A DNA stretch of 25,997 nt. Origin: a virus. Below, piece by piece: positions 1,067-23,765 of this stretch. The notes below the pieces were generated by a model. It had not been told where the DNA came from, searched no databases, and was given only the letters and a program-made list of their open reading frames with translations. The position numbers and the translations under genes are program-made. The DNA lies in the IMG/VR virus record IMGVR_UViG_3300032287_003598, positions 1-25,997 of that record; one strand, 5' to 3'. The first letter of the stretch is position 1. The number at the start of each line of letters is the position of its first letter.

Positions 1067-1723
1067 ATGGCGTTTAATTATTCACCAAAAATAACTACAG
1101 ATGGGCTAGTGTTGTATTTAGATGCGGCAAATACTCGTTCATATGCTAGTGGCACCACATGGTCAGATTTAAGCCGAAACGGAAATAATGTAACATTAGT
1201 AAATTCTCCAACTTATACCTCAACTAGTTATTTTACCTTTAATGGAACAACCCAATATGCTACTGGTACCACAACAAATGTAGTACCTTCAACTACATAT
1301 TCTAAGCAAATTTGGTTTTATTTAAATGCAATAGCTGATAATAATTTAATAAGTAGTGACGTGGGTGGGCATTATATGTTTTTTGGCTCAACAAACAGAC
1401 TATATGCTGGAAATTATAATTGGGCTGGATTTCCATACAACCTACAATCAACAACAACATTTACTACAGGTATTTGGTATAATGCAGCTATTACTTTTAA
1501 CACAACTGATGGAATGATATTATATGTAAATGGAGTATTAAATGCTACTTATACAGCTGTTAAAACTGCACATAATGGAAATGGAGCAACAAATATAGCA
1601 TCTTACGGTACAGGTAATCTATTAAATGGCAGAATATCTTCAGCAATGATATATAATCGTACCATAACAGCAACAGAAGTCTTACAAAACTATAACGCAA
1701 CTAAAACAAGATTCGGACTATAA
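1067..1723 (+). CDS. LamG-like (concanavalin A-like) virion protein, copy 1
   Basis: This 218-residue protein opens with DGLVLYLDAANTRSY followed by TTWSDLSRNGNN, the usual N-terminal strand pattern of LamG_3/concanavalin-like lectin domains in Bacteroidota and their phages. The rest reads as alternating beta strands ending in the shared C-terminal motif EVLQNYNATKTRFGL. The domain class normally binds glycans, so a receptor-binding or decoration role is the natural inference. It starts one base after the fibre gene and its stop overlaps the next start (TAATG at 1721-1725). It is the first of three paralogues (also 1723-2451 and 2714-3379) that share N- and C-terminal flanks but diverge in the middle. 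Confidence 0.75.
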   Translation: MAFNYSPKITTDGLVLYLDAANTRSYASGTTWSDLSRNGNNVTLVNSPTYTSTSYFTFNGTTQYATGTTTNVVPSTTYSKQIWFYLNAIADNNLISSDVGGHYMFFGSTNRLYAGNYNWAGFPYNLQSTTTFTTGIWYNAAITFNTTDGMILYVNGVLNATYTAVKTAHNGNGATNIASYGTGNLLNGRISSAMIYNRTITATEVLQNYNATKTRFGL

Positions 1724-2451
1724 TGGCAGGAAGGATATCATATTACGGAAACATAGTTAAAGATGGTTTAGTATTAGATTTAGATGCTGCTAAACGAGAT
1801 TCATATCCTGGAACAGGAACAGCATGGAATGATATAAGTGGACAAGGTTATACAGGTACTTTAACAAATGGGCCTACATTTAATCCAGATAATGGCGGAA
1901 GTATTGTTTTTGATGGTGTAGATGATTACGTAGAGTTTGGTGATGTTTTAGATTTAGGTACAAATAGTTTAACTGTTAATCATTGGGTCAATTTATCTGT
2001 TGCAAATACTAGTCAAATTTTTATGAGTAAAGCTTTAGCTGGAGTCCAAAATTATAGATTTTCAACTGGTATTGGTTATCCTGTTGCAAATAGACTTTAT
2101 GCTTTTATGCAGGGAAATACCGGTATTGATATTTTTCCATATGGCTCGACAGTCCTTACAACAAATACGTGGTTTATGGCAACATATGTTTTCAATAGAA
2201 CATCATCGATACAAATCTATTATAATGGTGTTCAAGAAACATTAACTGGTACTGCAACTATATCCCAATGGGATGGACTTAATTTTCAGTCAATAAATCC
2301 ATTTAGAATTGGTACATATACTGCTGGGAATAATACTGGTATAACTTTCCCAATGAATGGTAGAATGGGGTTGACCCATATGTACTTTAGAGCTCTTTCC
2401 TCATCTGAAGTACTACAAAACTATAACGCAACCAAAGGAAGATATTTATAA
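1723..2451 (+). CDS. LamG-like (concanavalin A-like) virion protein, copy 2
   Basis: This 242-residue protein has a LamG-like fold signature: DGLVLDLDAAKRDSYPG, then WNDISGQGYTGTL, then GGSIVFDGVDDYVEF, which is the classic first half of such domains. It ends EVLQNYNATKGRYL, nearly the same as copy 1. The central region (about residues 70-200) differs from the other copies and includes Trp- and Phe-rich strands suited to ligand contact. The start codon overlaps the preceding stop by one base and the next gene begins two bases after its own stop, so the cluster is one transcription unit. A glycan-binding adhesin role on the fibre is inferred from the fold and the neighbours, not shown. Confidence 0.75.
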   Translation: MAGRISYYGNIVKDGLVLDLDAAKRDSYPGTGTAWNDISGQGYTGTLTNGPTFNPDNGGSIVFDGVDDYVEFGDVLDLGTNSLTVNHWVNLSVANTSQIFMSKALAGVQNYRFSTGIGYPVANRLYAFMQGNTGIDIFPYGSTVLTTNTWFMATYVFNRTSSIQIYYNGVQETLTGTATISQWDGLNFQSINPFRIGTYTAGNNTGITFPMNGRMGLTHMYFRALSSSEVLQNYNATKGRYL

Positions 2452-2453
2452 TT

Positions 2454-2717
2454 ATGGAAACACAAAACTACCCAAACAGAGAATTTATGATATTCAACAT
2501 GTCAGAATTATCACAAATTGATTTCACTCAAGTACATGAAACCTCAATTGACACTGTACGTAAATCAATAGATGAAACTAAAACATTTGTAAAATGGGAT
2601 GGTGAAACACCTTCAAGCATTGCGGCTTTAACAACGGCGGAAGGACCTTATACATACGAGGAAATATTAACTATATTAGCTGGTCCTGAATGGACAAGCA
2701 CTGAACCATTACCATGA
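2454..2717 (+). CDS. Small hypothetical protein between LamG paralogues
   Basis: This gene encodes 87 residues, mildly acidic, with no signal peptide, membrane segment or cysteine. The first part (METQNYPNREFMIFNMSELS) looks beta-rich; the middle, around SIDTVRKSIDETKTFVKWDG, looks like a helix leading into a strand; and a later stretch (TYEEILTILAGPEW) is a probable helix. I do not recognise the family. It begins two bases after copy 2 of the LamG genes and overlaps copy 3 by four bases (ATGA at 2714-2717), so its translation is coupled to both. Its constant position among adhesin genes would suit a small accessory or folding factor for them, but that is only a guess from position. Confidence 0.65.
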   Translation: METQNYPNREFMIFNMSELSQIDFTQVHETSIDTVRKSIDETKTFVKWDGETPSSIAALTTAEGPYTYEEILTILAGPEWTSTEPLP

Positions 2718-3379
2718 GTACAGTAGAAGGTGGTGGAAATGTTATAACAGACGGTTTAGTGTTGTATTTAGATGCAGCAAACACTCGTTCATATGTTAGT
2801 GGATCAACTACTTGGACAGATTTATCACGTAGTGGGAATACGGGAACATTAGTGAATGGACCTACGTTTAATGCTGCAAATGGTGGGAGTATAGTGTTTG
2901 ATGGTGTAGATGATTATGTAACTTTTTCAACAATAACAAATAATGTTTATACTATTGAGTTTTGGTATAAAATGGGTGGTAATGATGGAACATATGGTTA
3001 TTTTGCATCAAGTGGTGACAATGGTTTGGCTATTAGTGAAGGAGGAAGTGTTAATGGGTTAGTGTATGGTCAATTTTATTATTATAATGGAAATCTTAAT
3101 AATTTATCTATTATTCCATCAACGACAAACTGGAATCATATATGTGCATTAATTAACACTTCAACAAATAATATACAAATATATGGAAATGGAAATCAAT
3201 TAAGTACTACCACTGTTACTAGTATGTCAACTTCAATAATTAACGTCGGTAGGTATATAACCGCTAATCTTAACTTTTTAAAAGGAAATTTAGCATCATA
3301 TAAAATTTATAACCGTGCCCTATCATCAACAGAAATCTTACAAAATTTCAATGCAACAAGAGCACGTTTTGGGATATAA
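2714..3379 (+). CDS. LamG-like (concanavalin A-like) virion protein, copy 3
   Basis: This 221-residue paralogue of the two preceding adhesin genes begins DGLVLYLDAANTRSYVSG, almost identical to copy 1. It then shares GPTFNAANGGSIVFDGVDDYV with copy 2, so it looks like a chimera of both flanks. The C-terminal motif EILQNFNATRARFGI is again shared. The central part (about residues 75-190) is unlike the others and its DNA is visibly richer in G on this strand, suggesting separate origin or module exchange. It overlaps the upstream gene by four bases and is followed by a candidate late promoter. A glycan-binding role is inferred from the LamG-like fold. Confidence 0.75.
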   Translation: MSTVEGGGNVITDGLVLYLDAANTRSYVSGSTTWTDLSRSGNTGTLVNGPTFNAANGGSIVFDGVDDYVTFSTITNNVYTIEFWYKMGGNDGTYGYFASSGDNGLAISEGGSVNGLVYGQFYYYNGNLNNLSIIPSTTNWNHICALINTSTNNIQIYGNGNQLSTTTVTSMSTSIINVGRYITANLNFLKGNLASYKIYNRALSSTEILQNFNATRARFGI

Positions 3380-3399: not shown

Positions 3400-4131
3400 A
3401 TGGCTGATTTCTCTAAAGAAAAAAAATATGATTACAACTGGCAAAATTCCAAATTTAAAGATCTTTTATTTGTAGGAAGTAACATATCCAATTTAGTTAA
3501 TGATGTTGGGTATATTACTTCGGCCGGAAGTATTTTAAGTGCTTCATACGCACTTACAGCATCATATGTTAACCCATTACGCCAAAATGTATATATAACA
3601 GGTTCACTTAATGTAACTGATGGTGATATTAATATAGTAAGCGGCTCATCATTTACAAGGTGGGGTAATAAATTATTTAACTACGGACAATTCTTAGACA
3701 CAACAACTCAATCAGGATCTGCAAACACTGCTTATTCTATGAAATTTAACACAACCGATTTTGCATTAAATACAAGAATAGTAAGCCAAAGTAGAATAAC
3801 AGTAGACAACACAGGACTATATGACTTACAATTTTCAGCTCAATTAGGAAACACAGCAAATACCACAATTGATTTTGATATATGGTTTGCTTACACAGGC
3901 AGTAATATACCAAATTCAAATACCCAAGTAGAGTTAACTAAAGTATCAGGAGCAAATGGTAGATTAGTAGCAGCATGGAATTTTGCAACCCTAATCCAAG
4001 CAGGTGATTACATAGAAATAAAATGGAGTTGTAATGCAGCAACGGGACAAATACAATCAGCACAATCATCAAGTACCCCAACAAGACCAGCAATTCCTTC
4101 AGTTATTGCTACTTTAACCCAAATAGCATAA
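3400..4131 (+). CDS. Fibre/tip-like structural protein with C-terminal jelly-roll-like domain
   Basis: This 243-residue protein carries, around residues 38-78, the module SASYALTASYV followed by VYITGSLNVTDGDI. That module closely resembles the repeats of the partial fibre at the left edge and is frequent in marine phage structural proteins. From about residue 85 the sequence becomes a beta-rich domain with spaced aromatic strands (YSMKFNTTDF, YDLQFSAQLG, IDFDIWFAYTG, AGDYIEIKWSC), resembling the C1q/TNF-like jelly rolls found at phage fibre tips. It is the last gene of the fibre cluster and has its own promoter-like motif 9 bases upstream. A trimeric tip or collar protein is the best inference; the exact role is unknown. 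Confidence 0.65.
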   Translation: MADFSKEKKYDYNWQNSKFKDLLFVGSNISNLVNDVGYITSAGSILSASYALTASYVNPLRQNVYITGSLNVTDGDINIVSGSSFTRWGNKLFNYGQFLDTTTQSGSANTAYSMKFNTTDFALNTRIVSQSRITVDNTGLYDLQFSAQLGNTANTTIDFDIWFAYTGSNIPNSNTQVELTKVSGANGRLVAAWNFATLIQAGDYIEIKWSCNAATGQIQSAQSSSTPTRPAIPSVIATLTQIA

Positions 4132-4499: not shown

Positions 4500-6614
4500 A
4501 TGGCAGAAACAATTGTATCACCTGGTGTATTAGCTATAGAAAACGATCAATCATTCATTACAGAAGGCCCTATACAAGCAGGTGCTGCTCTTATTGGACC
4601 AACAGTTAAAGGTAAAGTAGGAATACCTGTATTGTGTACAACATATAGTGATTATTTAAATAAATTTGGTTCTACTTTTTTAAGTGGAAGCCAAACTTAT
4701 TCATACCTTACATCAATTTCAGCATATAATTACTTCAATAACGGAGGAAATACATTATTGGTAACAAGAGTAGTAAGTGGAAGTACAGTTACAGATTGGA
4801 CTCCTGCAACTTCATCAACTATTCCTTCATCTGTAGCAGCTACCTCAGCCTCAGCTACATTAAATTTAACATATGTTTCCGCTAGTGTTGCAGCGGTAGG
4901 TTCAAGTTCATTTGGAGTAAATGGAATTACATTCTATTTTACAGGTTCAACAGTAGCTAATACTTCAACAATTGTATATGTTAACACAGCTTCATTTGCT
5001 AGTTCAACCTTAGCAAGCTATGCTGTATCTTCATCTACTATATTTAATGTTAGTAAATCTGCGGCATCATATAGTGGCTCTTTACAGTATATTTCTTCAA
5101 GTGCCTCTTCACCAAATGTAACATTTACATACATTGGTTCAAATGGTTTAGTTGGAAATTCACAATATATTGTTTCTGGAAGTACTACAACATATTTTTC
5201 TGGAGGTACAAATTCTCAAGCATTTGTTTTAGAGACATTATCTGAAGGTGAAATGATGAACAGTTCAGGTTCTTTATATGCTAATGGAACTTTAGAAAAT
5301 GGAACAGCAGATAACTATAGATGGCAGATTGTTTCTCCAAATATAAATAACGGAACATTTACTTTAATAATCCGTCAAGGTAATGATTCAACTAATTCTC
5401 CTTCAATTTTAGAAACATGGTCTAATTTATCATTAGATCCATTTGCTTCAAATTATGTTGAAAAAGTAATTGGAAACCAATACGAATCTGTTCAGCAAGA
5501 TAATGGAGAATATTATGTTCAATTAAATGGTGAATATAGAAACCAATCTAGATATGTACGTGTTAAACAAGTAAATTTAACCACTCCAAATTATCTTGAT
5601 AATACTGGGGACCCAAAACCACAATATACAGGTTCTTTACCTACTTCCTCTTTAGGTGTATTTGGAAATGGAAAAGGAAAAAATATTCCAACTGGAGTAG
5701 CAGGTGCATATTACGAAAATATTTCAAATACAAATATTCAAGGTTTAAAAGCAAATGATTATGTAGAATCTATTGCTTTGCTTGCAAATAAAGACGCTTA
5801 CAAATATAATTTAATCACAGCACCTGGTTTAATTGCAGATGGAACAAATTACCCATTACATGTACCTGTTGTATCACAACTTTTAAGTGTAGTACAAAGT
5901 AGAGGAGATTCAATGACATTAATTGATTTAGTAGGATACGGCTCTAATATACTCCCAGTAACAACAAATGCTTTAACATATGATACTTCATATGCAGCTG
6001 CATATTGGCCTTGGGTTCAAACAGTTGATCCAGACTCAGCAAGACAAGTTTGGGTACCTGCTTCAACTATGATTCCGGGTGTATACATGCTTAACGATAG
6101 TGTATCAGAACCTTGGTTTGCTCCTGCTGGAGTTAACCGTGGAGTAATGGCTACTGTTATTAGAGCAGAACGTAATTTGACTCAAGGAAACAGAGATTTA
6201 CTTTACGAAAGCAATGTTAATTCAATTGCAACTTTCCCCAATTCAGGTGTAACAGTATTTGGACAAAAAACACTACAGAAAAAGAAAAGTGCGCTTGATC
6301 GTGTAAACGTAAGAAGATTACTTATTGAATTAAAAAATTATATTTCACAAGTAGCAGATACCTTAGTATTCGAACAAAATACAGTAACTACAAGAAATAA
6401 TTTCTTATCTCAAGTTAACCCATATTTAGCTTCTGTACAACAAAGACAAGGTTTAACAGCATTTAAAGTAGTAATGGATGAATCAAATAATACACCTACT
6501 ACAATAGATAATAATCAATTGATAGGTCAAATTTATTTACAACCTACTAGAACAGTTGAATTTATCATACTAGACTTTAATATCTTACCTACTGGTGCAA
6601 CATTCCCAGCTTAA
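4500..6614 (+). CDS. Contractile tail sheath protein, long paralogue
   Basis: This 704-residue protein belongs to the phage sheath family (T4 gp18-like). The N-terminus, SPGVLAIENDQSF followed by QAGAALIGPTVKG, and the C-terminal half, with ALTYDTSYAAAYWPWVQTVDP, WFAPAGVNRGVM, ALDRVNVRRLL and QLIGQIYLQPTRTVEFI, are typical sheath core segments. The C-terminal domain forms the conserved inner layer around the tube and supplies the strands that link neighbouring subunits. Residues 1-94 align without gaps to the next gene, then about 125 extra Ser/Thr-rich residues (roughly 95-241) are inserted before the shared FVLETLSEG segment. That insert is probably an additional surface domain. Two sheath paralogues in tandem imply a mixed sheath or a specialised second copy. 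Confidence 0.92.
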   Translation: MAETIVSPGVLAIENDQSFITEGPIQAGAALIGPTVKGKVGIPVLCTTYSDYLNKFGSTFLSGSQTYSYLTSISAYNYFNNGGNTLLVTRVVSGSTVTDWTPATSSTIPSSVAATSASATLNLTYVSASVAAVGSSSFGVNGITFYFTGSTVANTSTIVYVNTASFASSTLASYAVSSSTIFNVSKSAASYSGSLQYISSSASSPNVTFTYIGSNGLVGNSQYIVSGSTTTYFSGGTNSQAFVLETLSEGEMMNSSGSLYANGTLENGTADNYRWQIVSPNINNGTFTLIIRQGNDSTNSPSILETWSNLSLDPFASNYVEKVIGNQYESVQQDNGEYYVQLNGEYRNQSRYVRVKQVNLTTPNYLDNTGDPKPQYTGSLPTSSLGVFGNGKGKNIPTGVAGAYYENISNTNIQGLKANDYVESIALLANKDAYKYNLITAPGLIADGTNYPLHVPVVSQLLSVVQSRGDSMTLIDLVGYGSNILPVTTNALTYDTSYAAAYWPWVQTVDPDSARQVWVPASTMIPGVYMLNDSVSEPWFAPAGVNRGVMATVIRAERNLTQGNRDLLYESNVNSIATFPNSGVTVFGQKTLQKKKSALDRVNVRRLLIELKNYISQVADTLVFEQNTVTTRNNFLSQVNPYLASVQQRQGLTAFKVVMDESNNTPTTIDNNQLIGQIYLQPTRTVEFIILDFNILPTGATFPA

Positions 6615-6658: not shown

Positions 6659-8356
6659 ATGGCAAAATTTACAGTTTCCCCTGGAGTAGCAATTAGTGAA
6701 ATAGATAACACGTTTTTAACTGGTCAACCTGTACAAGCTGGTGCAGCTATTATAGGACCAACAGTTAAAGGACCCGTTGAAGCCCCAACATTAGTTACAT
6801 CATATTCAGATTTCAAATCAATATTTGGAGATACTTTTATTAGTGGTGGCAATTCATATTCATATTTAACTTCAATTGCTGCTTACAATTATTTTAACTA
6901 TGGAGGCACTTCATTATTAGTAGCCCGTGTTGTTACAGGATCTTACACCCCAGCATCAAGTACTACAGTTTCAAATTACTTAAATGTTGCATCTTCATCA
7001 TTTGCTTTAGAAACACTTTCTGAAGGTATTATCATGAACAACTCAGGTTCAGAAATATCAGGTGCTTTAGCTTCAGGTTCAGAAAATAATGTAAGATGGG
7101 AAATTACTAACTCAAATACAGGATCAGGCACATTTAACGTAATAGTTAGAAGAGGAGACGATAATAATATAAATAAAATTGTTCTTGAATCATTTAACGG
7201 AGTTAATTTAGACCCAAATTCCTCAAAGTTTATTAGTAAAGTAATTGGAGATCAAGCAATTAACTACAATTCAACAACAAACCAAATGGAAGTTTCTGGA
7301 AGTTATCCAAACAACTCCAGATATGTTCGTGTTAAAAGCATAAATTATTTAACACCAAATTATTTTGATGGAAACGGCCAACCAGTTTCAGCTTATACAG
7401 CATCAATCCCTGTAAACGGAAGTGGTTCATTTAGCGGTGCTACAGGAACATTAAATTCTGTAGTAAACTTATATGATGCTATTTCAACTAATACACAAGG
7501 TTTAACTGGAGGAAATTATAATAGTATGATTGCATTACTTGGAAATCAAGATGCATATCAATTTAATGTATTATTTACTCCTGGGTTATTAGATGATACT
7601 CATACTGCTCAAGTTACTAATATTATCACAAATACTATTTCAAGAGGTGATAATTTATATGTAATGGATTTAGTTGATTTTAACAGTACAGTTACAGACG
7701 CAACTACACAAGCCCAATCAAGAGATACTTCATATGCCGCAACATATTGGCCTTGGGTTCGTATTATTGACCCAGCAACAGGAAAACACGTATGGGTTCC
7801 AGCTTCAACCGTAATACCAGGTGTATATGCATTTAACGATAAAGTAGCTGCTCCATGGTTTGCCCCAGCAGGTATTAACAGAGGTGGATTGAATACAGTG
7901 TTACAAGCACAATATAAACTATCTCAAGCAAATAAAGATTCATTATACGATAATAACGTTAACCCATTAGCTACATTACCTAAACAAGGTGTAGTAGTAT
8001 TTGGACAGAAAACATTACAAAAAGAAGCATCTGCTTTAGATAGAGTAAATGTTAGACGTTTAATGATTGAATTAAAAGGATATATTAGACAAATTGCAGA
8101 TACAGTAGTATTCGAACAAAATACAAACGCTACTAGAAATGCATTTATTGCTAGAGTAACTCCATATTTACAAATTATTCAACAAAAACAAGGTTTGTAC
8201 GCATTTAAAGTAGTAATGGATGATTCAAATAACGGACCTGATGTAATAGACAGAAACCAGTTAATTGGACAAATTTATATCCAGCCTACACGCACAGCTG
8301 AATTTGTTTCTTTAGATTTTATTTTATTACCAACTGGAGCTCAATTCCCAGCATAA
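6659..8356 (+). CDS. Contractile tail sheath protein, short paralogue
   Basis: This 565-residue sheath-family protein (T4 gp18-like) is clearly paralogous to the preceding gene along its length. It shares SPGVAISEIDN, QAGAAIIGPTVKG, FNYGGTSLLVARVV, the WFAPAGINRGGL segment and the C-terminal QLIGQIYIQPTRTAEFVSLDF. It lacks the roughly 125-residue Ser/Thr-rich insert of the long copy and so resembles a minimal sheath protomer. It has its own promoter-like motif and is followed by the tail tube gene, the usual sheath-tube order of T4-like phages. Which copy forms the bulk of the sheath cannot be told from sequence. Its role is contraction, driving the tube through the host envelope. Confidence 0.92.
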   Translation: MAKFTVSPGVAISEIDNTFLTGQPVQAGAAIIGPTVKGPVEAPTLVTSYSDFKSIFGDTFISGGNSYSYLTSIAAYNYFNYGGTSLLVARVVTGSYTPASSTTVSNYLNVASSSFALETLSEGIIMNNSGSEISGALASGSENNVRWEITNSNTGSGTFNVIVRRGDDNNINKIVLESFNGVNLDPNSSKFISKVIGDQAINYNSTTNQMEVSGSYPNNSRYVRVKSINYLTPNYFDGNGQPVSAYTASIPVNGSGSFSGATGTLNSVVNLYDAISTNTQGLTGGNYNSMIALLGNQDAYQFNVLFTPGLLDDTHTAQVTNIITNTISRGDNLYVMDLVDFNSTVTDATTQAQSRDTSYAATYWPWVRIIDPATGKHVWVPASTVIPGVYAFNDKVAAPWFAPAGINRGGLNTVLQAQYKLSQANKDSLYDNNVNPLATLPKQGVVVFGQKTLQKEASALDRVNVRRLMIELKGYIRQIADTVVFEQNTNATRNAFIARVTPYLQIIQQKQGLYAFKVVMDDSNNGPDVIDRNQLIGQIYIQPTRTAEFVSLDFILLPTGAQFPA

Positions 8357-8407: not shown

Positions 8408-8896
8408 ATGGCAATTTTAAATCCTAACGAAATTTTTTATACAGCGTTTGAACCTAGACTAACAAACCGTTTTATCCTTTATATGGATGGTATTCCGTCG
8501 TATTTAGTAAAAGGAATGTCTGCAATTTCATTGACGCAAACAGCAGTTCCTCTTAACCACATCAACGTTCAACGTTACGTAAAAGGAAAAACTATTTGGA
8601 ATACTGTTACTTTTACATTGTTTGAAGCAATTACCCCTGCAGGTTCTCAAACCGTAATGGAATGGGTTCGTTTAGGACACGAATCAGTAACAGGTAGAGA
8701 TGGTTACTCTGATTTCTATAAAAAAGATATTACATTTAATGGTTTAGGCCCAGTAGGTGATATTGTTAATGAATGGGTACTTAAAGGAGCTATTATTACA
8801 AGTGTTAATTTTGGAGATTATAACTGGGATGATGATGGTAATGCAGTAAACATTACAATTGAAGTACAACCAGATTATTGTATCTTGAACTACTAA
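8408..8896 (+). CDS. Tail tube protein, T4 gp19-like
   Basis: This 162-residue protein is the normal size for gp19-type tube proteins. The order is characteristic: an N-terminal segment ending in NRFILYMDGIPSYLVKG, a central MSAISLTQTAVPLNHINVQRYVKGKTIW in conserved spacing, the helix SQTVMEWVRLGHESVTGRDGYSDFYKK and the C-terminal strand VNFGDYNWDDDGNAVNITIEVQPDYCIL. It stacks as hexameric rings to form the inner tube through which DNA passes. It directly follows the two sheath genes and is closed by a strong hairpin terminator 27 bases after its stop, so the sheath-tube unit ends here. Confidence 0.93.
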   Translation: MAILNPNEIFYTAFEPRLTNRFILYMDGIPSYLVKGMSAISLTQTAVPLNHINVQRYVKGKTIWNTVTFTLFEAITPAGSQTVMEWVRLGHESVTGRDGYSDFYKKDITFNGLGPVGDIVNEWVLKGAIITSVNFGDYNWDDDGNAVNITIEVQPDYCILNY

Positions 8897-8923: not shown

Positions 8924-8958
8924 AAGCTCCACATTAACATGTTGGAGCTTTTATTTTT
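8924..8958 (+). terminator. Rho-independent terminator after the tail tube gene
   Basis: An 8-bp stem, AAGCTCCA (8924-8931) with TGGAGCTT (8943-8950), encloses an 11-base loop and is followed by a T-rich run, TTATTTTT. It lies 27 bases after the tube gene stop and just before the promoter of the secreted-protein cassette, marking a transcription-unit boundary. It is the clearest intrinsic terminator in the window. Confidence 0.8.
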
Positions 8959-8995: not shown

Positions 8996-9589
8996 ATGAA
9001 ATTTTTTCAATTTATATTATTTATATTTTTAACCTACATAAGTTTTGGCCAATGTAATGGAACTCAATCATTTACATTAACCCCTCCCCCAGTAGCAGGA
9101 ACATATCTCCCAGGTCAAATAGTAACTATGTGTTACACAATGAATGGGTATACACAAGCTGGAATTAATTGGATAGAAGGATTTGATTTAACTTTAGGAC
9201 CTGGTTGGGCATCTGTTATACCTCAAAGTGCACCTGCAAATTGTGGAGGTAATGGAACAGGGGGGCAATGGACATGGATGACCTCAGTTACTTCAACTAC
9301 AACACCTATCACAACTGTAGGACCAGGATACTTTTTTGATCTATCTGTTGATGGTAACCCAGGAAATGATTTTGGGGATGCTGGGTCTTGTACTTGGACT
9401 TTTTGTGTTACTTTAACAGTAGCAAATGTTTGTACACCTCAAAATTTACTTTTACAAGTAACAGCGGGGTCAGATGGGTTATGGGGAAGTTACACAAGTA
9501 CATCCTGCGATTTAGCAACACCATTTACAATATTTAACGGAACAATAAATATAATCCCTATTACATTAGGGCCTGTTAGTCATAATTAA
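8996..9589 (+). CDS. Secreted protein 1 of an exported cassette, flavobacterial surface-protein-like
   Basis: The start at 8996 gives 197 residues opening with a good Sec signal peptide (MKFFQFILFIFLTYISFG, cleavage probably before Q19). An ATG at 8939 in the same frame is rejected because it lies in the loop of the terminator hairpin and would bury the signal peptide. The mature part has the beta-rich, Gly/Thr/Pro-rich look of flavobacterial extracellular proteins: FTLTPPPVAGTYLPGQIVTMCYT, WIEGFDLTLGPGWASV, FFDLSVDGNPGNDFGD, CTWTFCVTLTV. It has seven mature-chain cysteines, suited to an exported protein. It ends in GPVSHN, echoed by SPIQHN at the end of the next gene. It is the first of three consecutive exported proteins. 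Function unknown; a surface or adhesion role is inferred. Confidence 0.8.
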   Translation: MKFFQFILFIFLTYISFGQCNGTQSFTLTPPPVAGTYLPGQIVTMCYTMNGYTQAGINWIEGFDLTLGPGWASVIPQSAPANCGGNGTGGQWTWMTSVTSTTTPITTVGPGYFFDLSVDGNPGNDFGDAGSCTWTFCVTLTVANVCTPQNLLLQVTAGSDGLWGSYTSTSCDLATPFTIFNGTINIIPITLGPVSHN

Positions 9590-9601
9590 AAACAAAAAAC
9601 C

Positions 9602-10159
9602 ATGAAAAAACTACTTTTACTTTTATTTTTATCTCTTACTGGTATATTATCAGCACAATTAACAACTACTAACCCAGATACGGTTTGTTATCAGACAACT
9701 ACCTTATCAACCTATCAAGTCCCTTCAGTTGGTACAGGCACTTATACTTGGACAGTACCGGCTTGTGCTACTCTAGTTTCAGGTCAAGGAACCAATTCAA
9801 TATCCGTTAATTGGTCAGCTTGCCCTCCAGGATTAATCAATAACGCTATTTCAGTATCATACACTAGTCCTTCAGGCTGTCCTGCTACACCAGTAACACT
9901 TAATGTATTGATTTATCAAGTGATTCCTGTAATTACTCCGGTAGGTCCATTTTGCGCTGGAGATCCTTGTGTTACATTAGTTGCAACCCCAACAGGAGGA
10001 ACTTGGTCAGGTACAGGGGTAACTGGAAACCAATTTTGCCCAGGTATAACTAATACTTTAATCACATATACTTACACTCAAAGTGGTTGTACATTCTCAG
10101 CAAATGCAGGCGCAGTAATTAACCCAGTTCCAGTACTATCACCAATTCAACATAATTAA
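9602..10159 (+). CDS. Secreted protein 2 of the cassette, tandem PKD/Ig-like domains
   Basis: This 185-residue protein opens with a textbook signal peptide (Lys-Lys, then a leucine run, cleavage after SA before Q19). Gln at +1 follows the Bacteroidota Q-rule, in which the new N-terminus becomes pyroglutamate. The mature chain looks like two small Ig/PKD-like beta domains: about residues 20-107 (DTVCYQTTTLSTYQ, TYTWTVPACATLVSG, SISVNWS) and 108-175 (ITPVGPFCAGDPCVTL, GGTWSGTGVTGNQFCPG, TYTYTQSGCTF). Both patterns are very common in flavobacterial surface proteins with gliding-motility-type C-termini. It ends PVPVLSPIQHN. The stop overlaps the next start by one base (TAATG at 10157-10161 region), so the genes are coupled. 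Role unknown; probably exported together with its neighbours. Confidence 0.82.
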   Translation: MKKLLLLLFLSLTGILSAQLTTTNPDTVCYQTTTLSTYQVPSVGTGTYTWTVPACATLVSGQGTNSISVNWSACPPGLINNAISVSYTSPSGCPATPVTLNVLIYQVIPVITPVGPFCAGDPCVTLVATPTGGTWSGTGVTGNQFCPGITNTLITYTYTQSGCTFSANAGAVINPVPVLSPIQHN

Positions 10160-10716
10160 TGAGGTATTTAATATTCATATTATTCCCGTTTATTTGTTTG
10201 TCCCAACAAACTGTAGAGATATGTAATGATTTTAAAACATTTTCATACTTTACTTCTTCTACTGAAAATGGAAATATAGAATGGGAAGTAAATGGAATGT
10301 ATTATTATGGAGATGAAATTACTTTAACGTGGGATGAAGCAGGAATATATGAAATTACAGCAACTGCTACATCTAATAATTGCCCTAGTTTACCTCAAAC
10401 ATATACAGTAACAGTTATTGAATGTGATCCTTTAATTTATTGGATACCAAATTGTTTTACACCTGATGGGAATGAATTTAACCAAATGTGGGGACCTGTT
10501 TTTACAAGCGGATATTCAATTGATCATTTTGAAATATATGTTATGAATAGATGGGGGAATTTAATCTGGCAATCAACTAACCCCGCAGGTAAATGGGATG
10601 GAACATATAATGGAAAAAAAGTTTTAGATGGAGTTTATACTTGGATAGTAAGATTTGACCTTTTAAACACAGATGAACGAAGAATAGATCACGGATATGT
10701 GACAATAATTAGATAA
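10159..10716 (+). CDS. Secreted protein 3 with PKD-like domain and T9SS type B (gliding-motility) C-terminal domain
   Basis: This 185-residue protein has three parts. Residues 1-15 are a signal peptide with Gln at +1. About 20-88 is a PKD-like beta domain (GNIEWEVNGMYYYGDEITLTW, YEITATATSNNC). About 94-185 is a gliding motility-associated C-terminal domain (CHU_C / TIGR04131 type). The last is marked by IPNCFTPDGNEFNQ, FEIYVMNRWGNLIWQS, KWDGTYNGKKVLDGVY and the terminal strand GYVTIIR, all in family order. In Bacteroidota this domain directs cargo through the T9SS outer-membrane translocon to the surface or medium. Finding it on a phage gene amid tail genes is striking. It could instead have been reused as a virion domain, but the signal peptide argues for export. 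Overlapping start codon with the upstream gene. Confidence 0.88.
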   Translation: MRYLIFILFPFICLSQQTVEICNDFKTFSYFTSSTENGNIEWEVNGMYYYGDEITLTWDEAGIYEITATATSNNCPSLPQTYTVTVIECDPLIYWIPNCFTPDGNEFNQMWGPVFTSGYSIDHFEIYVMNRWGNLIWQSTNPAGKWDGTYNGKKVLDGVYTWIVRFDLLNTDERRIDHGYVTIIR

Positions 10717-10733: not shown

Positions 10734-11105
10734 ATGAAATTAAATGCTTTACGTACATTAGTTAAAGAAGAACTTAAAAGATCTTTAAACGAAGAATACC
10801 AAGATAAATTTAAAATGGTAGGGATGCTCATTTCAAACATTGAGCAACGCCCCCAAAAAGAAATTTATTCAGATATCCGTTCAATTACAGGTATTTCAGT
10901 AATTTCTTCAAAAGAACCACTTGAATATAGTGAACAAGATACTACCAAATTCCAATCAATATTAACAGTTAAAGTAGATGGTTACCCATTCATTACAAAA
11001 GGTGGGTTTAGTAGAGATAAAATGGCAGAAATAGCCGCTCAAGTTAGAAAAGTACCAGGAGTTATATCTTTTAATTTTAATCCTGATAATGTTTCTGCTC
11101 TTTAA
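10734..11105 (+). CDS. Hypothetical tail-operon protein, ferredoxin-like fold suspected
   Basis: This 123-residue protein starts with an amphipathic helix (LRTLVKEELKRSLNEE), a style seen at the start of several marine phage proteins. Then follows an apparent alternation of strand, helix and strand: FKMVGMLISNIE, KEIYSDIRSITGISVIS, FQSILTVKVDG, KMAEIAAQVRKVPGVISFNF. This beta-alpha-beta-beta-alpha-beta order suggests a ferredoxin/ACT-like fold. No catalytic motif, cysteine or signal peptide is seen. It lies between the secreted cassette and the gp26-like gene, behind its own late-type motif. I do not recognise the family; a structural or assembly role is inferred from position only. Confidence 0.65.
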   Translation: MKLNALRTLVKEELKRSLNEEYQDKFKMVGMLISNIEQRPQKEIYSDIRSITGISVISSKEPLEYSEQDTTKFQSILTVKVDGYPFITKGGFSRDKMAEIAAQVRKVPGVISFNFNPDNVSAL

Positions 11106-11147: not shown

Positions 11148-11879
11148 ATGGAAGAAAAATTTAAATTACCAACGGAAACCGTTGAATTACCCTCAAAAGG
11201 TTTACTTTACCCTGAAGGGTCTGAATTATCAAAAGGAAAAGTAGAAATGAAATATATGACTGCTAAGGAAGAAGATATCCTTACAAACCAATCATATATT
11301 AAAAATGGTACTGTTTTAGATAAACTTTTAAAATCATTGATTGCTTCCCCAATCAATTATGATGAACTTTTAATTGGAGATAAAAACGCAATAATGGTCG
11401 CAGCTCGTATTTTAGGATACGGTTCAGAATACTCATTCGATTATTTAGGTGAATCACACACAGTTGATTTATCTCAAATTGAAAATAAAGAGTTGAACGA
11501 AGAATTATTTAAAAATCGTTTAAATGAATTTACATTTACTCTCCCAAAATCAAAAAATACAGTTACCTTTAAACTTTTAACTCACAAAGATGAACAAAAT
11601 ATAAACCGTGAGCTAGAAGGACTTAAAAAAATAAACAAAGACGCTTCCCCTGAACTTTCTACACGTTTAAAATATATTATTACTTCTGTGGAGGGAAGTC
11701 GCGAAACTAAAGACATTCGAGATTTTGTCGACAATTATCTCTTAGCCCAAGACTCCAGAGCTCTAAGAGAATATATTAGAGAAGTTCAACCAGATGTTGA
11801 TCTAACTTTTTTTCCCGACGGGAGTTCAAATAGAGTCAATATCCCAGTTGGGGTTAGCTTTTTTTGGCCTGACATTTGA
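11148..11879 (+). CDS. T4 gp26-like baseplate protein (probable tail assembly chaperone frame 0)
   Basis: This 243-residue protein is of the T4_baseplate (gp26-like) family. Signs are the N-terminal VELPSKGLLYPEGSELSKGKVEMKYMTAKEED with LPSKG and the YMTAKEEDIL helix, the central VAARILGYG, and a C-terminal tail ending FFWPDI, which is characteristic of the family. Its last bases overlap a second frame that continues as a gp51-like sequence without an ATG. The stop TGA (11877-11879) follows a run of seven T (11859-11865), so a programmed frameshift producing a longer fusion is possible. It sits directly upstream of the tape measure, the classical place for tail assembly chaperones. The family assignment is strong; the chaperone role is inferred. 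Confidence 0.82.
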   Translation: MEEKFKLPTETVELPSKGLLYPEGSELSKGKVEMKYMTAKEEDILTNQSYIKNGTVLDKLLKSLIASPINYDELLIGDKNAIMVAARILGYGSEYSFDYLGESHTVDLSQIENKELNEELFKNRLNEFTFTLPKSKNTVTFKLLTHKDEQNINRELEGLKKINKDASPELSTRLKYIITSVEGSRETKDIRDFVDNYLLAQDSRALREYIREVQPDVDLTFFPDGSSNRVNIPVGVSFFWPDI

Positions 11880-22514: not shown

Positions 22515-23765
22515 ATGTATTGGCTGATAGAAGATCAACAAAAAATAGAAACCCTTTGTCGTATTAAATACCAAGTAGCTTATGTTGAAGTAATATCCAC
22601 ATCACATAATCTACACCCCATTGAAAACGACATATGTGCTTTATACATTAGACCAAGAGACGATTCAAAAGGATATATTATACCAATAAATCATAGTGAA
22701 ACAATAAATTCAACAATAGAGGATTGTTTAAAAGTACTAAACAGTATAGAATACATTTATGTAAGGGATAGAAAGGAATTTTTACATTATTTTGCCCTTA
22801 AGCATTGTTACCAACCCTCACCCTCCCCAAATACGTATATACCTCAATTAACACAAGCTCACACTCATATTTACAACAAGTATCCAAACTCATCTAATTT
22901 AAACACAATAGTACCGATTGTAAAACACTATGAGATATGTGAACAAAACTTTGCTAATTTTAATAGTATAAGAATAAACCCATTTTACAACAAAGCAGCA
23001 CTTGTGTTTAATCAACTAGAACGAGCGGGTATAAAAATAGACCAAACTAAATTTGAACAGTATTATGATAAAGAGGCAAACGAGTTTATTTACACGCAAT
23101 ATAACCTAAACACATTAACAACAAGACCCTCCAATACATTTGGAGGTATAAATTTTTCAACATTAAATAAAGATAACGGTGAAAGAGAATGTTTTATACC
23201 GCGCAATGATGTTTTTATTGAAATGGATATTAGTGCTTATCATCCTACCCTACTTGCTAATTTATTGGGGCATGCTTTTGGGAGCAGTGATGTTCATATG
23301 GATTTTGCTCAAATGTATGGAGTGGACTACGGAAAAGCCAAAGAAATAACATTTAAACAATTATACGGTGGTATTTGGAAAGAATATAGAGATTTAGAAT
23401 TCTTTCAAAAAGTACAAGCATATGTAGATGATTTGTGGGATACTTTTAATTATGGAGGGTATATTAAATGCCCTATTTCAGACCATAAATTTATAAAAAA
23501 TGAAATGGAGGATATGAATCCACAAAAGCTTTTAAATTACATACTACAAAACTTGGAGACCGCAAATAATGTTCTTATATTGTGGGATATTTTTAAAATA
23601 TTACGAGGGAAAAATACTAAACTCGTATTATATGTTTACGATTCATTTTTACTTGATTTTGATAAAAATGAAACAGAAGTAATAGAACAAATAAAACAAG
23701 TATTTAATAAATACAAGCTACAGATTAAAATAAAAACAGGAACCAATTATAATAATTTAAAATAA
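22515..23765 (+). CDS. Compact family A DNA polymerase
   Basis: This 416-residue protein shows the palm and finger motifs of DNA polymerase I in order. A TTRPSN element carries Arg204 (cf. the TGR of Pol I), and motif A has EMDISAYHP with Asp238. Motif B is the O-helix K276-x3-F280-x3-Y284-G285, exactly the spacing of Pol I Lys758, Phe762, Tyr766. N341-x3-Q345 matches Asn845/Gln849, and motif C is YVYDS with Asp376 in place of HDE. Residues 1-150 look like a shrunken 3'-5' exonuclease domain (ICALYIRP, GYIIPINH), but the first DxE motif is absent (AYVEVIS). It is far shorter than Klenow-type enzymes (about 600). Role: phage DNA synthesis, probably without proofreading by this chain. Confidence 0.85.
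   Translation: MYWLIEDQQKIETLCRIKYQVAYVEVISTSHNLHPIENDICALYIRPRDDSKGYIIPINHSETINSTIEDCLKVLNSIEYIYVRDRKEFLHYFALKHCYQPSPSPNTYIPQLTQAHTHIYNKYPNSSNLNTIVPIVKHYEICEQNFANFNSIRINPFYNKAALVFNQLERAGIKIDQTKFEQYYDKEANEFIYTQYNLNTLTTRPSNTFGGINFSTLNKDNGERECFIPRNDVFIEMDISAYHPTLLANLLGHAFGSSDVHMDFAQMYGVDYGKAKEITFKQLYGGIWKEYRDLEFFQKVQAYVDDLWDTFNYGGYIKCPISDHKFIKNEMEDMNPQKLLNYILQNLETANNVLILWDIFKILRGKNTKLVLYVYDSFLLDFDKNETEVIEQIKQVFNKYKLQIKIKTGTNYNNLK

Follow-up and report, generated by a model that had tools for sequence, protein, structure and literature searches.

Results

Gene order and anatomy of the cassette

The window, i.e. the whole stretch of DNA that was analysed, is the 25,997-base IMG/VR virus record IMGVR_UViG_3300032287_003598, the source of which is a large virus of Bacteroidota. 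On one strand, two tail sheath genes are followed by a tail tube gene, a block of three genes (the cassette), a gene for a 123-aa protein, a gp26-like hub gene and a long probable tape measure gene. The features in and around the cassette are:

8408..8896, + strand: tail tube (phrog_4542, 1.4e-17; 53% identity to the tail tube of Flavobacterium phage immuto)
8924..8958, + strand: intrinsic-terminator-like hairpin between tail tube and cassette (stem-loop 8924-8950 plus U-run)
8996..9589, + strand: ORF1 (chain 1), 197 aa; signal peptide followed by Gln at +1, no family match in the libraries, tail GPVSHN
8996..9049, + strand: ORF1 signal peptide, 18 aa; the +1 Gln is encoded at 9050, and Q19 is invariant in the ORF1 homolog alignment
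9569..9586, + strand: ORF1 C-terminal tail GPVSHN (G-x-I/V-x-H-N; G, H and N in 54/54 distinct homologs)
9602..10159, + strand: ORF2 (chain 2), 185 aa; signal peptide encoded at 9602-9655 with Gln at +1, then a PKD_6 domain and the tail SPIQHN
10139..10156, + strand: ORF2 C-terminal tail SPIQHN (I-x-H in 55/55, followed by a final N in 53 and a final D in 2)
10159..10716, + strand: ORF3 (chain 3), 185 aa; signal peptide encoded at 10159-10203 with Gln at +1, then a possible PKD-like domain and a type B T9SS C-terminal domain (CTD)
10444..10707, + strand: type B CTD (CHU_C / Bac_Flav_CTERM), ORF3 residues 96-183
10734..11105, + strand: 123-aa protein without signal peptide, directly 3' of the cassette
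11148..11879, + strand: gp26-like baseplate hub (phrog_150, 4.5e-9; 65% identity to the immuto hub)

The start of ORF1 was placed at the Met of 8996, where its relatives begin; the mechanical open reading frame begins at 8939. An earlier note, made from the DNA letters, had described three consecutive coupled genes at 8996-10716, and these are indeed present, with a gap of 12 nt between ORF1 and ORF2 and an overlap of 1 nt (TAATG) between ORF2 and ORF3. The same one-base overlap is found in 47 of the 58 distinct split cassettes in which the spacing between chains 2 and 3 could be read. The N-termini also look like the putative Sec signal peptides of the note: in each of the three genes, the aligned homologs have Lys/Arg ahead of or with a hydrophobic core, together with a small residue at -1, and Gln at +1 is invariant.

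The type B T9SS domain assigned to the third gene was recovered above cut-off with both models, CHU_C (PF13585; 52.8 bits, 4.5e-14, cut-off 27) and TIGR04131 (41 bits, 1.5e-10, cut-off 35), and a profile built from the ORF3 alignment matched the C-terminal region of GhpA (PDB 9flp, 3e-13). Neither CHU_C nor TIGR04131 matched ORF1 or ORF2, for which a CTD is found only in their fused or bacterial counterparts. The Ig/PKD-like domains that the note had seen in all three chains held up unequally. They were confirmed for ORF2, which matched PKD_6 (PF19408) over residues 21-74 (38.8 bits, 1.2e-9, cut-off 25). For ORF3 a PKD match of 15.1 bits, below the cut-off of 23.5, is suggestive, and in ORF1, which had no family match in Pfam, NCBIfam or PHROG, the sole indication is strands in a weak model. 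The domain search detected no SprB repeats in the window's three chains, and no mutual homology between ORF1 and ORF2 was detectable in the searches made.

Elsewhere in the window, the tail sheath is about 50% identical to that of phage immuto. The sheath genes form a tandem pair (4500-6614 and 6659-8356, both phrog_23) that is common to many relatives. Upstream of the cassette, 1067-3379 encodes three similar 'DGLVLYLDAA...' proteins, possibly LamG-like tail-fibre components, and 22515-23765 encodes a 416-aa protein whose sole match is to a phage DNA polymerase profile, and there to its C-terminal part. The tail tube of 'Microcystis phage Mel-JY01' (PP395634) is 56% identical to that of the window and closer to it than those of some Bacteroidota phages; given this likeness, the host assignment of that phage may be open to doubt.

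Split and fused forms in phages and bacteria

Scans of viral contigs of up to 436 kb returned 11 loci for ORF3, 79 for ORF2 and 61 for ORF1. Phage contigs contain the block in split form as 58 distinct cassettes and in fused form about 20 times, and CHU_C was found in 23 of 23 related phage records. Being conserved in dozens of distinct cassettes, the arrangement is not a product of chance. Host sequence misassembled into phage contigs, which the Bacteroidota origin of the domains might bring to mind, is scarcely credible as a source, since the cassette is present on distinct contigs by the dozen, in many cases flanked on either side by phage tail genes, and the IMG/VR contigs that carry it reach 436 kb.

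At intact split loci the order chain 1 - chain 2 - chain 3 is always kept, and chains 2 and 3 are never apart where the contig is long enough. In the fused homologs, the sequences of chains 2 and 3 lie in one protein of 670-830 aa with a different N-terminal part, joined exactly where, in the split form, one chain stops and the next begins. Where fused genes are linked to tail genes they occupy the same slot as the split block (tube-[gene]-p123-hub), and the gene for the 123-aa protein comes immediately after the cassette at almost every tail-linked locus, whether split or fused. The 635-kb phage LR745206 carries one fused copy and four CHU_C matches, and LR756502 has three.

Fused genes carry 0-2 SprB-like repeats (PF13573). 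Such repeats are sub-threshold in the fused proteins of L065 and L012 and clear in L013, in L135 and in chain 1 of L033. The protein encoded at 7255-12267 of L013 (LR756502), a phage product of 1670 aa, combines 13 SprB repeats with an ORF1-like domain and a CTD.

A single genome-contig scan with the ORF1 alignment located the ORF1-like domain at six Bacteroidota MAG loci, at the N-terminal side of long proteins (845-1714 aa). A CTD closes five of the six, and L139, the remaining one, is cut off by the end of its contig. The earlier note had likened the three chains to one host adhesin split into three, a view which gains strong support from the fused phage homologs and from these bacterial CTD adhesins.

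A conserved C-terminal tail on chains 1 and 2

What tells most about the cassette is a feature that the note does not mention, a tail shared by chains 1 and 2. All 54 distinct ORF1 proteins and all 55 distinct ORF2 proteins have the free C-terminus I/V-x-H-[N/D], in the form G-x-I/V-x-H-N in ORF1 and mostly P-x-L-x-P-I-x-H-N in ORF2, with D as last residue in two. The sequences are related, which inflates the Fisher value for the tail, so cluster counts are the safer measure; at 85% clustering the rule still holds for 23 ORF1 and 22 ORF2 clusters. Chain 1 is exchangeable: seven first chains of other architecture (262 to 425 aa), among them a Gly-rich, a SprB-repeat and a PKD protein, end likewise and also begin with a signal peptide and Gln.

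The His is absent at the equivalent junction of the fused proteins (0/20). Examples of this junction are TLTNPPVPVVGPITYN-DTVC and YEQPQISQITPYN-DFYEVC, from which it follows that the ends of the split chains lie on inter-domain linkers. The codons of the tail vary, both CAT and CAC being used for His and both AAT and AAC for Asn; selection therefore acts at the protein level, and a nucleotide-level translation signal was ruled out.

Could host machinery recognise the tail itself as a signal for export or anchoring? It occurs only at the free C-terminus of chains that look exported and have no CTD, as such a signal would. A search of 295 Bacteroidia-class genomes, restricted to the strict form P-I-x-H-N-TAA, found the DNA pattern in 91, not above the reversed control on inspection of the table. 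The 32 matches sampled lay in short frames, mostly without a start, and none ended a plausible secreted protein. A common host signal is thus unsupported, and a host-read signal seems to us very improbable; the lack of enrichment of the strict motif in these genomes points instead to a partner within the cassette rather than to a host receptor. An isopeptide cross-link through the terminal Asn/Asp was also considered and rejected, as mature ORF2 and ORF3 contain no invariant Lys.

Relation to the tail module

The note had suggested looking for the block after the tail tube gene in flavobacterial phages. Such a position is seen for 13 distinct split cassettes, but 36 lie elsewhere, and none is present at the corresponding site of the cultured Flavobacterium phage immuto, where the tube directly adjoins the hub. 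Among distinct fused cassettes, 5 follow the tube and 14 lie elsewhere. Cassettes were counted as 'elsewhere' if the roughly 1.2 kb upstream contained no recognisable tube gene; 10 cassettes on contigs too short to tell were left unplaced. In G001 and G012 the tube is some 50-70 kb away from the cassette. Related phages thus do not retain the cassette among their tail genes: it is missing between tube and hub in immuto and located elsewhere in most phages that have it.

The hairpin between tube and cassette folds at −12.4 kcal/mol (z −5.3) in the window. Six loci were folded in all, and the five tail-linked relatives form a hairpin at the same place despite a differing upper-stem sequence. It was not reported by a simple pattern scan, and RNAalifold gave an empty consensus for the spacer between tube and cassette because the loop lengths misalign; single folds were used instead. 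In view of the immuto arrangement and of this hairpin separating tube and cassette, an inserted accessory unit is favoured over a core part of the tail.

These data also bear on whether the three proteins are parts of the virion, such as tail decorations, with signal peptides that are incidental or serve solely for export before release. The location between tail tube and baseplate genes in the 13 split and 5 fused cases would suit this, as would the frequency of Ig-like domains on phage virions. It is nevertheless an improbable explanation, given the 36 split cassettes without a recognisable tube gene just upstream, the distant tube in G001 and G012, the terminator-like hairpin and the invariance of the Q+1 signal peptides. 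Moreover, immuto has an identical tail order without the cassette, and no CHU_C match was obtained anywhere in that phage, a negative to be read with the equally silent control genomes. Virion decoration, one of the roles put forward in the note, is accordingly disfavoured.

Structure models

A model of a fused homolog had good confidence beyond about residue 390, apart from the region around 640-660. The segment equal to the tail of chain 2 (residues 551-560) is ordered, with a pLDDT of 91. The model is of one chain and carries no contacts between separate chains. Foldseek returned fragments of GhpA, a surface protein of Aureispira, as best PDB matches (2e-13), and the best viral-library matches include A0A6J5NJX2 and A0A6J5NML0. 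A three-chain AlphaFold model made by reading through the stops was discarded (pLDDT 49.7), as the alignment had put single-chain rows on ORF1; its PDB search gave generic Ig matches, none at E ≤ 0.001. In donor-strand assembly, as in chaperone-usher or Mfa1-type fimbriae, a C-terminal strand is inserted into the neighbouring subunit. Set beside this, the tail corresponds to the fused homologs' linker, which is ordered in the fused model, and the three-chain model was uninformative. Counting against docking, chain 2 retains a segment of its own, TTTNPDTVC, that lines up with the beginning of PKD_6; the tail is hence not strictly needed to complete this domain.

Discussion

On balance, the cassette probably represents a phage-encoded, three-chain type B T9SS adhesin, with chains 1 and 2 docked and carried out on chain 3. 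That one adhesin has been split is indicated by the fused chain 2-chain 3 homologs, the fixed gene order and the N-terminal position of the ORF1 domain in bacterial CTD proteins; chain-to-chain docking, co-export and a role at the surface are what we infer. All three chains would reach the periplasm via Sec and be cut to expose Gln according to the Bacteroidetes Q-rule. Chain 3 with its CTD would then be exported by the host T9SS, aided by a host shuttle of the PorP/SprF type, and be anchored at the surface. The tails of chains 1 and 2, corresponding to the inter-domain linkers of the fused homologs, would most likely dock each chain on the next, such that chains 1 and 2 could leave as an assembled rod with chain 1 as its exchangeable tip. 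A search of 23 phage records for PorP/SprF (PF11751) found nothing, but as the control gave no signal either, this negative is uninformative.

Alternatively, only chain 3 may leave the cell, chains 1 and 2 being separate periplasmic proteins whose I-x-H-N ends confer protease resistance or bind a periplasmic partner. Both chains are without a CTD and their tail is not a known T9SS signal, as this would predict. Yet about 20 phages encode chains 2 and 3 as a single protein, the gene order never varies, bacterial CTD proteins include the ORF1 domain, and a guard against proteases would not need an identical H-N on unrelated chains. We therefore hold this explanation to be unlikely, and prefer the carriage of chains 1 and 2 by chain 3.

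More tentatively, the cassette could exemplify split-cargo type IX secretion, in which a free I-x-H-N/D tag docks CTD-less chains on a CTD-bearing partner and permits export of a one-CTD complex with interchangeable tips. The literature passages checked gave no example of CTD-less chains carried by T9SS cargo.

The Q-rule is established (PMC5837995; PMC10653852), and it has been proposed that phages of flavobacteria use the gliding machinery and its adhesins as receptors (PMC7345892; PMC13288928). On these grounds we infer display at the surface during infection. The changed surface would most likely alter adhesion or receptor availability; superinfection exclusion is one plausible benefit, and gliding may be altered as well. 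If this is true, phages of Bacteroidota remodel the surface of their host through its own gliding and secretion machinery. The conserved tail would offer a simple handle on whether the T9SS exports assembled multi-chain cargo, and on the exchange of adhesin tips.

Phage-encoded T9SS cargo as such is already published. The Cryophage proteins (PMC7468147) and the CTD proteins of crAss-like phages (PMC6949934) are likewise phage products with a T9SS sorting domain, expected to use the host system. The Cryophage cargo differs in consisting of single proteins, enzyme-like or with PA14, whose sorting domains are of type A, and the passages on this subject in the two papers mention neither a multi-chain cassette nor a C-terminal tail. 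The literature searched contained no description of the three-chain form with its shared free C-terminal tail and fused counterpart. The novelty would thus lie in the export of three chains on one CTD, as predicted from the sequences.

Among cellular proteins, the type B CTD adhesins (SprB and relatives, TIGR04131/PF13585) share the signal peptide with Gln at +1, Ig/PKD-type domains and CHU_C at the extreme C-terminus, and SprB-repeat-like segments recur in the fused phage homologs; unlike them, the cassette is phage-encoded and split in three with separate signal peptides. Grappling hook protein A of Aureispira sp. (GhpA; PDB 9flp and related entries), matched by both the ORF3 profile and the fused model, is by contrast a single cellular chain and, at 5898 residues, much longer. 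A0A6J5NJX2 (187 aa, annotated 'Gliding motility-associated, C-terminal domain') and A0A6J5NML0 (185 aa, 'PKD-like domain-containing') of an uncultured Caudovirales phage resemble ORF3 and ORF2, respectively, in size and are close fold matches. They differ in being listed as separate proteins, and no description of a system was found.

Some further observations concern the related loci. L061 encodes at 3555-3890 a CTD-only chain of 111 aa, in which the signal peptide is followed almost directly by CHU_C. A gene for an FKBP-type isomerase-like protein without signal peptide lies near the cassette in L095 (6883-7308), L122 (8411-8836), L108 (7732-8157) and L087 (7877-8488). Finally, N-termini resembling MKKIIxLTExDLxxIVKRV, perhaps a targeting sequence, are found on many unrelated phage proteins (L028, L034, L095, L108, L122 and others).
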